Shown here piece by piece: positions 46,300 through 48,352 of a stretch of 48,388 nt of DNA. The notes under the pieces are model-generated. The model was not told where the DNA came from and did no database searches. It was given only the letters and a program-made list of their open reading frames with translations. Each line of letters starts with the position of its first letter. Positions within the stretch are counted from its first letter, which is position 1. Origin of the DNA: Eubacteriales bacterium (lineage in GTDB: Bacteria > Bacillota > Clostridia > Lachnospirales > Lachnospiraceae); the NCBI GenBank assembly GCA_030524225.1, contig JAUNGV010000015.1, positions 1 through 48,388 of the forward strand. Reading direction: 5' to 3'. A program made the position numbers and the translations under genes.

Positions 46300-47184
46300 C
46301 TATTCGTACACCGCGCGGTCGATCGTGCCCGCCGCATCATTGATCAGCGTCGCCACCACGAGGAACTGACGGTCCTCATCCTGCGTCATATTCGTCGTGA
46401 GTGTCACAAGGAAATTGTAGGGCGTGATCTCCTCCCAGCCCTCACGCAGATTCTTGCTCATATCCTTCGTGTCATAGAGATCGTCGATGAACTGCTGGCA
46501 GCCCGCCATATAGGTGAAGTCGTATTTGCGGATCAGACTCTGGGAATCCGTCGTGTAGGCCGCGTAAATCTCATACATCAGCACATTGTCCGGCAGATAC
46601 AGATACAGTAGCTGGTTCTCGTCAAAAAACTCCGAATCGGCAAAGCGGTGCAGCTCGGAGAACATCCCTCCGTCCTCCAGCGTTTTCCCATGAATTACCG
46701 TATTAAAATCACAGAGATTTGTCAAGTTCGCGAGTTCCGTATAAAAAGCGCCGTCTGCATTCTCGCTCCCGTCCGCCCCGTGTTCCTCGTACCAGGTATC
46801 CGACTCCACGCTCTGCAGCACAGGGCCGTCGATATCAGTCCCCGGCACATAGAGCCACGCGAAAATATCCGGATTCTCCGCCTGCAGCGCCGCAAAATCC
46901 ACCGTCCCGTCGGCAGCCGTCTCATTGGCCAGTCCCGTGCCGCTTTCCTGTTCCCCGCCGGAAAGGGCCGTCCCCGCCTCTTCTGCGCCGCCGGTTCCCT
47001 GCGCGCCGCATCCCGCCATAAAGAACGCCGCCGTCAGCACCGTCAGCAGCAGAGCCGCCGCCCGGCTCCTGACTCCGTAAACGCCTGCCGCAAAATCCAG
47101 CGCCCGGCTCCCGTTTCCTGCAGCGTCTGCCATACGCTGCATCGCCATCCTGCTCTGTTTCCTATTCTTATTCTGATTCGCCAT
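46300..47184 (-). CDS. sortase B-like lipoprotein lacking the catalytic residues (pseudo-sortase)
   Basis: A 294-residue protein. A basic N-terminal region and a membrane helix (42-58) end in a lipobox-like MAGC, so Cys59 may be lipidated. Residues 100-285 follow class B sortase order: NPDIFAWLYVPGTDID, YEEH...GAFYTE, NTVIHGKTLEDGGMF and TLTTN. Active family members have IYGH with catalytic His, TLSTC with catalytic Cys and an Arg about eight residues on. Here these positions read Lys167, Asn265 and Gln273 (with Arg272 beside it). The fold is kept but transpeptidation is not expected. Its start overlaps the end of the LCP gene by 17 bases, so the two are translationally coupled. Confidence 0.82.
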   Translation of the reverse strand: MANQNKNRKQSRMAMQRMADAAGNGSRALDFAAGVYGVRSRAAALLLTVLTAAFFMAGCGAQGTGGAEEAGTALSGGEQESGTGLANETAADGTVDFAALQAENPDIFAWLYVPGTDIDGPVLQSVESDTWYEEHGADGSENADGAFYTELANLTNLCDFNTVIHGKTLEDGGMFSELHRFADSEFFDENQLLYLYLPDNVLMYEIYAAYTTDSQSLIRKYDFTYMAGCQQFIDDLYDTKDMSKNLREGWEEITPYNFLVTLTTNMTQDEDRQFLVVATLINDAAGTIDRAVYE

Positions 47185-48304
47185 TCTCCACCTTTTCATA
47201 AAACACATTGATAATCAGTTCGTACAGGCCATCCTCGTCTACATGGAACTCCTCATAGCCGTTCTCTCCCATCACCGTCTCGCCGGGCAGCATATAGAAG
47301 GAATCTTCGCCAAACCGGTACCCGGCCGCCGTCCCCGCCAGATACAATACCTCGTCAAGGGTGATATCCGTCACCATCGCCGGCGAAATCGCGTTGTAGA
47401 GGTCGGTGACACTCGTCGGATCCTCTTTCACATGGGCGATGGCCTTCTGCAGAAACGCCTGCAGATACTGCTTCTGCCGCGCCAGCCTGTTGTCCGCGGA
47501 GGCAAACTCTCCCGTATCGCGCCGCTGGATATACGTATACGCCATCTCTCCTTCCAGATGCAGCTGTGCCCCTTCCGTGAACCGGTAATCCCACTGCGTC
47601 ATATCCTCCAGCACCGTGACGTCGACGCCGCCCACCGCGTCGTTGATCGTCGGCACCGCGCTGACATTGATCGCACAATAGCCGTGAATCGGCAGGTCAT
47701 ACATGAGTTTGCGCACCGCCTTTTCCTGCAGCTCGCAGCTCTCCTCCATCCCGTCGCCGAAGCCATGCTGCACCGCGAGCTGGGCCTCCCGTGTCGCCAG
47801 ATAATTGCCGTCTTCATCATAGACCTCAATGTCCGTCATCGTATTCCGGTTCAGCCCGATCACGGATATCGTCTGATCATGGGGATTCAGAACGAGCAGG
47901 AACAGGGCGTCCGCCTGCCCGCCGTTGACTCCCTCCTCCTGACGCTGCACCACGCTGTCCCTTTTATCAATGCCCATGAACAGGAAGGTCATGATATCGC
48001 TGTTGTAGTCGTAAATGTCCCCTTCATAGCGGACATATCCCTCTTTCCACGGGATATTCTCCTCCTCTGCCTGCTCCTGACTGATCGTAGCGCCTTCCAT
48101 GGAGGGCGCCTGCGAATCCGCCCGGCTCTGCAGATGATATCTGCCGTACTGACTGAAGGCCAGCACCACGCCCGCCAGTGCCAGAACAATGAGGATCAGA
48201 AATAAAAGAATTAAAAGAGCGGCCTGCCACGGCCTCCACACCCTTCTGCGTCGTCTGGGCGTTCTCTTTTTGCGCGTGTCAAACCGCCTGAATACTATTT
48301 TCAA
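47168..48304 (-). CDS. LytR-CpsA-Psr (LCP) family protein
   Basis: Predicted 378-residue membrane-anchored enzyme that attaches glycopolymers to peptidoglycan. A basic N-terminus (KKRTPRRRRR) precedes one membrane helix (about 25-50). The extracytoplasmic LCP domain shows FLFMGIDKRD, the Arg of LNRNTMTDIEVYD (usual form PRDT, here Asn for Asp), NDAVGGVDVTV and DNRLARQKQYL. The start is probably TTG at 48304, with GGAGG just before it; GTG 48328 is an alternative. The gene overlaps the pseudo-sortase gene and is preceded by another same-strand gene that enters from outside the window. Confidence 0.86.
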   Translation of the reverse strand: MKIVFRRFDTRKKRTPRRRRRVWRPWQAALLILLFLILIVLALAGVVLAFSQYGRYHLQSRADSQAPSMEGATISQEQAEEENIPWKEGYVRYEGDIYDYNSDIMTFLFMGIDKRDSVVQRQEEGVNGGQADALFLLVLNPHDQTISVIGLNRNTMTDIEVYDEDGNYLATREAQLAVQHGFGDGMEESCELQEKAVRKLMYDLPIHGYCAINVSAVPTINDAVGGVDVTVLEDMTQWDYRFTEGAQLHLEGEMAYTYIQRRDTGEFASADNRLARQKQYLQAFLQKAIAHVKEDPTSVTDLYNAISPAMVTDITLDEVLYLAGTAAGYRFGEDSFYMLPGETVMGENGYEEFHVDEDGLYELIINVFYEKVENGESE

Positions 48305-48352
48305 GATGCCTCCATCTTGCCGGTGCACCGAAGACGGCGCGCCGGCTCTGTC

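Follow-up and report, generated by a model that had tools for sequence, protein, structure and literature searches.

A class B sortase homologue without its catalytic triad, linked to an LCP glycopolymer ligase gene in a capsule operon of Lachnospiraceae

What can a sortase homologue still do once the residues with which sortases work have gone, and what keeps such a gene beside a gene for a capsule ligase? The question arises near one end of a 48,388-nucleotide stretch of DNA from a member of the Lachnospiraceae (Eubacteriales bacterium, assembly GCA_030524225.1, contig JAUNGV010000015.1, positions 1 to 48,388), to which we refer as the window. At 46300..47208 on the minus strand, where all window features named below also lie, is a gene for a predicted lipoprotein related to class B sortases (SrtBs), and directly upstream, overlapping it, is a LytR-CpsA-Psr (LCP) glycopolymer ligase gene (47168..48328). 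We conclude with high confidence that the protein, here called a pseudosortase, has lost sorting catalysis and that pseudosortases of its kind keep a conserved role in the operon.

Sequence alignment with active SrtBs assigns Lys175 (46684..46686), Asn273 (46390..46392) and Gln281 (46366..46368) to the columns of the catalytic His, Cys and Arg, respectively, and so confirms the three replacements named in a preliminary description of this DNA made without database searches. Neither the catalytic His nor the catalytic Cys is found in any of the 38 clade members compared, or in any of the relatives read, which are the best 80 of 109 from a scan of named genomes. Gln occupies the Arg position in 36 of the 38 clade members and in 78 of the 80 relatives, the other two having Glu and Arg. 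The notion that triad loss is unique to the window genome was rejected, since the 80 relatives share the loss of His and Cys. In the window protein the residue before Q281 is itself an arginine, R280; among the relatives this place is taken by Lys (58), Arg (15), Ser (4), Thr (2) or Asn (1), and because of this spread we do not take R280 for a catalytic Arg that has moved by one residue. A complete triad at another place in the chain, which the preliminary description had named as evidence that would tell against it, was likewise considered and rejected: none was found among the conserved His, Cys and Arg columns, which fall outside the triad positions. When the 198 positions are ordered by variability within the clade, the former His comes 158th and the former Cys 192nd. 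Besides these two, 21 positions are clade-specific (at least 85%), and the window protein retains 19 of the 21. They include two cysteines, Cys166 (46711..46713; 36 of 38 members) and Cys237 (46498..46500; 38 of 38), which could possibly form a disulfide. Across both the dead and the active groups, 26 sortase-domain columns are conserved.

That the protein is a class B sortase homologue is well supported. The NCBIfam class B sortase model TIGR03064 matches it with E 1.4e-27 and 96.6 bits, which is below the cut-off of 153.75; the same model gives two active, LCP-linked relatives 136.7 bits (L081, also below the cut-off) and 157.7 bits (L191, which passes). The Pfam Sortase match (E 0.0011, 19.2 bits) is under its cut-off of 26.6, and a 37-member profile picks out 15 PDB sequences, each of which is either named sortase B or an unnamed homologue. 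Viral contigs scanned with the single window protein gave no relative. The reading frame is open and intact and encodes 302 amino acids counted from the first ATG. The ATG at 47184, which the preliminary description had used, is the likelier start, giving 294 amino acids, because the ribosome-binding-site-like sequence AAAAGGTGGAG lies just ahead of it. From the start codon to the hydrophobic segment the distance is unusually long in the window protein. The segment ends in MAGC (47008..47019), which fits the lipobox suggested earlier; its cysteine, Cys67, is invariant in the 37 aligned clade members, and 74 of the 80 relatives satisfy a strict lipobox pattern. The protein is a predicted lipoprotein and presumably lipidated.

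The upstream open reading frame is identified as an LCP by PF03816 (E 2.4e-18), as had been proposed, and its 3' end overlaps the likely start of the pseudosortase gene by 17 bp (47168..47184). Further upstream on the contig are genes for CpsB (PF19567), Wzz (PF02706) and an ATPase resembling the bacterial tyrosine kinases (PF13614); the locus is that of a sortase homologue adjoining an LCP in a CpsB-CpsC-CpsD operon. The preliminary description had called for a survey of the His, Cys and Arg columns and of LCP linkage in relatives, and such a survey bears out both the loss of the triad and the linkage. An LCP gene lies on the same strand upstream of the pseudosortase in 79 of the 80 relatives, all dead at His and Cys, at a spacing of −65 to +145 bp, and in 61 of the 80 the two genes overlap or are separated by no more than 4 bp. 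CpsB, CpsC and CpsD are all present upstream in 69 of the 80, as judged with queries named by eye whose names were confirmed with Pfam on the window contig only. Among LCPs of other genomes, the best 30 listed for the window LCP are all pseudosortase-linked and match at 360–400 bits and 49–61% identity, against at most 314 bits and 48% identity for the congeneric LCPs compared. Because the window LCP is closest to pseudosortase-linked LCPs, we suggest that LCP and pseudosortase have travelled together as a pair.

The history of the family was examined in a tree of 90 hand-chosen rows, 38 of them hand-picked LCP-linked pseudosortases, from which the three catalytic columns had been removed; SrtB4 of Mediterraneibacter gnavus, which we take to be RGna_12035 and to which we return below, is not among the rows. 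The 38 pseudosortases, the window's included, form one clade with support of 100/100. Its neighbours in the tree are the LCP-linked active SrtBs (96/86), and a further split (100/99) sets off the other class B sortases. Selection was estimated from 19 hand-picked close pairs of relatives. The ratio of nonsynonymous to synonymous substitution rates (dN/dS) of the pseudosortases is 0.06–0.45, below 0.5 in all 19 pairs, and that of the LCPs in the same pairs is 0.03–0.18, lower than the pseudosortase value in 18 of the 19. Loss of the triad together with purifying selection among the relatives is the pattern of a pseudoenzyme, and the dN/dS values led us to reject the idea that the gene is a pseudogene.

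How widely the two forms occur can be judged from several samples. Searching 392 genomes of the order with a profile added 29 loci, comprising 13 LCP-linked pseudosortases, three other dead homologues and 13 active sortases; the alignment used for the named-genome scan consisted of the window protein and 12 of these 13 pseudosortases (L209 was left out). Forty-nine of the 80 relatives from that scan are titled Butyrivibrio, and the other 31 are Lachnospiraceae, Parablautia muri or assemblies with the titles Bacillus, Ruminococcus, Clostridium, Clostridia bacterium or uncultured bacterium. The genus of genome G078 is taken to be Butyrivibrio, since the protein of L196, a locus from this genus, and that of L218 from Butyrivibrio sp. 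MC2021 are 100% identical; a match at E <= 1e-60 is present in 62 of the 79 genomes, with residues only partly read. Of 397 genomes sampled evenly across the family, 81 pass E <= 1e-35. Among the homologues scored in the loci read, those above 300 bits are all dead, and those at or below 202 bits are active with the exception of three (65–122 bits) that belong to a second dead group described below. The 28 further loci read from the family sample, five of them also read elsewhere, all keep His, Cys and Arg, and 23 of the 28 have an LCP gene on the same strand within the short flank. The pair of LCP and active class B sortase is widespread in its own right. Active class B sortases of the LCP-linked clade (L298–L310, L321–L347) often overlap or abut the LCP gene, on either side.

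What the preliminary description rightly saw at this locus was a dead sortase beside an LCP; it overlooked a secreted partner that lacks a sorting signal. Behind the pseudosortase, starting within 250 bp, 79 of the 80 loci have a gene for a secreted protein whose C-terminal domain is conserved, and none of these 79 proteins ends in a motif followed by a hydrophobic stretch and a basic tail. We scanned loci for such signals with a looser pattern, in which [SA]P[KQ]T is followed by a hydrophobic stretch and then a basic tail. A secreted protein matching it occurs in 18 of 24 active loci of the LCP-linked clade, against none of the 81 LCP-pseudosortase loci (those of the 80 relatives plus that of the window contig) and none of the nine loci of the second dead group; the stretches compared average 15.0 and 14.5 kb, about the same. 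Triad and sorting signal are missing together, which makes the secreted neighbour the likely client. For the one partner tested against Pfam and NCBIfam, that of L272, there was no match. Its domain is similar to the segment immediately ahead of the sorting signal in the substrates of active loci (hhalign probability 75%, E 2.6e-5, 56 columns), and homology of partner and substrates appears likely but unproven; for secreted neighbours of the second dead group the probability of likeness to the partner is 10% and homology is not established. In the window genome the C-terminal part of the partner, without a sorting signal, lies at 51014–51343 of contig C69, upstream of CpsB at the contig end, and its N-terminal part finds a match close to an end of contig C96. 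These pieces seem to be one gene split by a contig break.

We know of no such pseudoenzyme among sortases. A search of the literature, from which subscription papers and bioRxiv were largely absent, found no published description of a dead, lipid-anchored sortase or 'pseudosortase', and the 'degenerate sortase' of one match is a cleavage motif. The preliminary description knew of no earlier account of the pairing of sortase and LCP. This is so, as far as our search reached, for the dead form; a class B sortase with an LCP in a capsule cluster is already known in active form, the closest published precedent being SrtB4 of M. gnavus (PMC13121745). SrtB4 lies in a capsule cluster with an LCP (RGna_12040), and when srtB4 is disrupted or deleted the capsule halo is lost and cell-wall polysaccharide is lowered, with restoration on complementation. 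Mutants in the LCP and tyrosine-phosphatase genes of the cluster are also capsule-defective, and candidate sorting-signal proteins are reported near sortase genes (PMC13121745). SrtB4 is, however, treated as a sortase, its client being left to be identified (PMC13121745), whereas the window protein has no catalytic His, Cys or Arg and no partner with a sorting signal. In Clostridioides difficile (PMC4155245) the class B enzyme SrtB cleaves SPKTG peptides, the motif type of the active LCP-linked loci, and replacement of its Cys209 by Ala abolishes activity; unlike that enzyme, the window protein naturally lacks Cys, His and Arg and is a predicted lipoprotein. A third likeness comes from Actinomyces oris, where an LCP and a sortase share a secreted substrate, GspA, which is glycosylated by LcpA and then anchored by SrtA (PMC6381275). 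This system differs in belonging to the Actinobacteria and in using a housekeeping, active SrtA and a GspA that has a sorting signal, and in the passages seen no dead sortase is mentioned (PMC6381275).

On the analogy of M. gnavus and A. oris, the active operons probably anchor a secreted protein for capsule attachment at the LCP. The SrtB presumably joins a small secreted protein carrying (S/A)P(K/Q)T to peptidoglycan, and the LCP alongside it would attach the polysaccharide. The pseudosortase, with what is probably a class B fold related to that of these LCP-coupled capsule-operon sortases, would have lost its triad and been kept as a non-enzymatic part of the attachment of capsular polysaccharide or exopolysaccharide, the change having run, we infer, from active to dead; its part in the capsule is suggested by analogy with M. 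gnavus SrtB4. Since LCP, partner and, to judge from sequence, the sortase fold are kept but triad and sorting signal are absent, we propose non-covalent docking. At the dead loci, where the partner lacks a sorting signal and the sortase homologue lacks its active site, the likeliest reading is that the lipid-held pseudosortase binds the partner, the LCP or both, so that docking at the LCP site would take the place of covalent anchoring. Whether it is in fact a docking platform for partner, LCP or both in capsule attachment is, in our judgement, evenly balanced. A more specific version, offered tentatively, is that of a sortase turned receptor: the partner would be the former client, which lost its sorting signal as covalent anchoring gave way to non-covalent holding by a lipid-anchored fold at the LCP.

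Several observations weigh against this reading. The scan patterns were drawn from dead members and included a clade-specific cysteine; they sample the dead clade rather than all LCP-linked sortases, and the 80 of 80 is therefore a biased sample that overstates the uniformity of the LCP-linked class. With six candidates scored per genome, only the window's own protein and one other exceed 300 bits in the 397 family genomes, and within the window's own genus its form of pseudosortase occurs in 1 of 62 genomes. Support is weak (76/71) for nesting the dead clade within the active group instead of next to it. The tree row nearest to the window protein is 64% identical to it, and the window protein is in none of the 19 pairs, so that the dN/dS values cover relatives and not the window lineage. 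The looser sorting-signal motif was fixed after the active loci had been seen. An earlier strict pattern gave 15 of 24 active loci, 1 of 81 pseudosortase loci (a non-PKT match) and 0 of 9 of the second group, and any xPxTx with a signal peptide gave 18 of 24, 3 of 81 and 0 of 9. Six of the 24 active loci have no sorting-signal protein; an LCP was found in the stretch in 21 of the 24 and not in three, and several are close relatives. The likeness of partner to substrate is moderate, with some single-sequence matches mainly in the signal peptide, and in the window organism the partner lies upstream of CpsB and does not adjoin the pseudosortase.

Other explanations account for part of the evidence. 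The pseudosortase may be a subunit of the LCP, which it would bind, position or activate, with the partner a mere neighbour. The constancy of the LCP gene (overlapping or within 4 bp in 61 of the 80 relatives, within 145 bp in 79) speaks for this, as does the finding that the nearest relatives of the window's LCP and of its pseudosortase alike belong to linked pairs in other genera. The partner, however, is equally constant (79 of 80) and has no sorting signal at loci that lack sorting catalysis, and translational coupling is no proof of contact; we think this explanation rather unlikely. Nor does it seem probable that the fold serves to guide the acceptor, with a retained groove in which the stem peptide of peptidoglycan, or lipid II, would be taken up and brought to the LCP. 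An active sortase must bind a peptidoglycan nucleophile, and the 26 columns shared by dead and active groups are in keeping with this reading; the former His and Cys positions, on the other hand, vary freely.

Much further down the scale we place a new enzyme, in which C166, C237, H143, R255 and R298 would form a different active site. Each of the five is conserved in 36–38 of 38 clade members, and the two cysteines are absent or rare among active relatives; but H143 is found in 16 and R255 in 5 of 22 active relatives, a disulfide explains two extracytoplasmic cysteines equally well, and the pseudosortase loci have no (S/A)P(K/Q)T substrates. A decaying relic carried along with the operon is strongly disfavoured. 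Lost catalytic residues and a dN/dS above that of the LCP in nearly all pairs (18 of 19) would suit it, but every one of the 19 ratios is below 0.5, the window protein keeps its open frame, its lipobox and all but two of the 21 clade-specific residues, and a close match is present in 62 of 79 Butyrivibrio-group genomes. In M. gnavus, srtB4 is needed for presentation of the capsule (PMC13121745); retention beside the LCP of a naturally dead gene of this kind suggests that a sortase fold may act there in ways besides transpeptidation. To call the pseudosortases class B sortases in annotation would mislead, and the occurrence of paired active and dead operons in one bacterial family makes the receptor reading testable.

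The window's own genus holds both forms. Sixty of 62 congeneric genomes have a match to the window protein at E <= 0.001, and 10 pass E <= 1e-35; in the nine besides the window's the match is at most 163 bits and His and Cys are intact. The preliminary description had looked to sister species for normal residues without conserved LCP linkage as signs against it: normal residues are indeed present there, and linkage to LCP genes is conserved in both forms. In at least 7 of the 62 an LCP gene lies directly upstream of a class B sortase with intact His and Cys; Arg is intact in six, and the seventh is cut by a contig end. The LCPs of these seven are 31–34% identical to the window LCP. The nearest congeneric LCPs, nine genes in eight other genomes, are 43–48% identical, and a phmmer search of eight short stretches around them found no sortase gene alongside; in a longer stretch of one genome (G051) a dead homologue of the second group, L089, lies 1.2 kb from the LCP.

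The second dead group comprises nine tree rows (L018, L089, L111, L123, L151, L155, L189, L190 and L192), the majority of which begin with a lipobox-like stretch, while several lie close to LCP or other capsule genes. The first six come from congeneric genomes; they have lipobox-like N-termini, and several adjoin capsule genes as read by eye. L190, one of the three other dead homologues of the order search, also adjoins an LCP. A single clade of all 47 dead rows was not rejected (approximately unbiased test, p 0.27), and an earlier grouping of the window protein with the six congeneric dead homologues as one family was dropped in the light of the tree, which sets the nine apart.

Some further observations concern single loci. 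Sortase homologues without catalytic His and Cys also occur at L032 (another family of the order) and L150 (the same genus), with no LCP found nearby in the stretch searched, and a class B sortase frame in a congeneric genome (L142:14271–16555) is apparently broken into two pieces. The locus of L297 holds an ordinary active class B sortase besides its pseudosortase. Within the window, the gene after the pseudosortase is a different one from the partner, a glycoside hydrolase by eye. The window LCP has NRNT in place of the PRDT of TagU, and NRNT is common to the nearest congeneric LCPs read. At L276, L277, L279 and L286 the CpsD query and the LCP profile hit the same open reading frame, the one immediately upstream of the pseudosortase; this frame is perhaps a kinase–LCP fusion.
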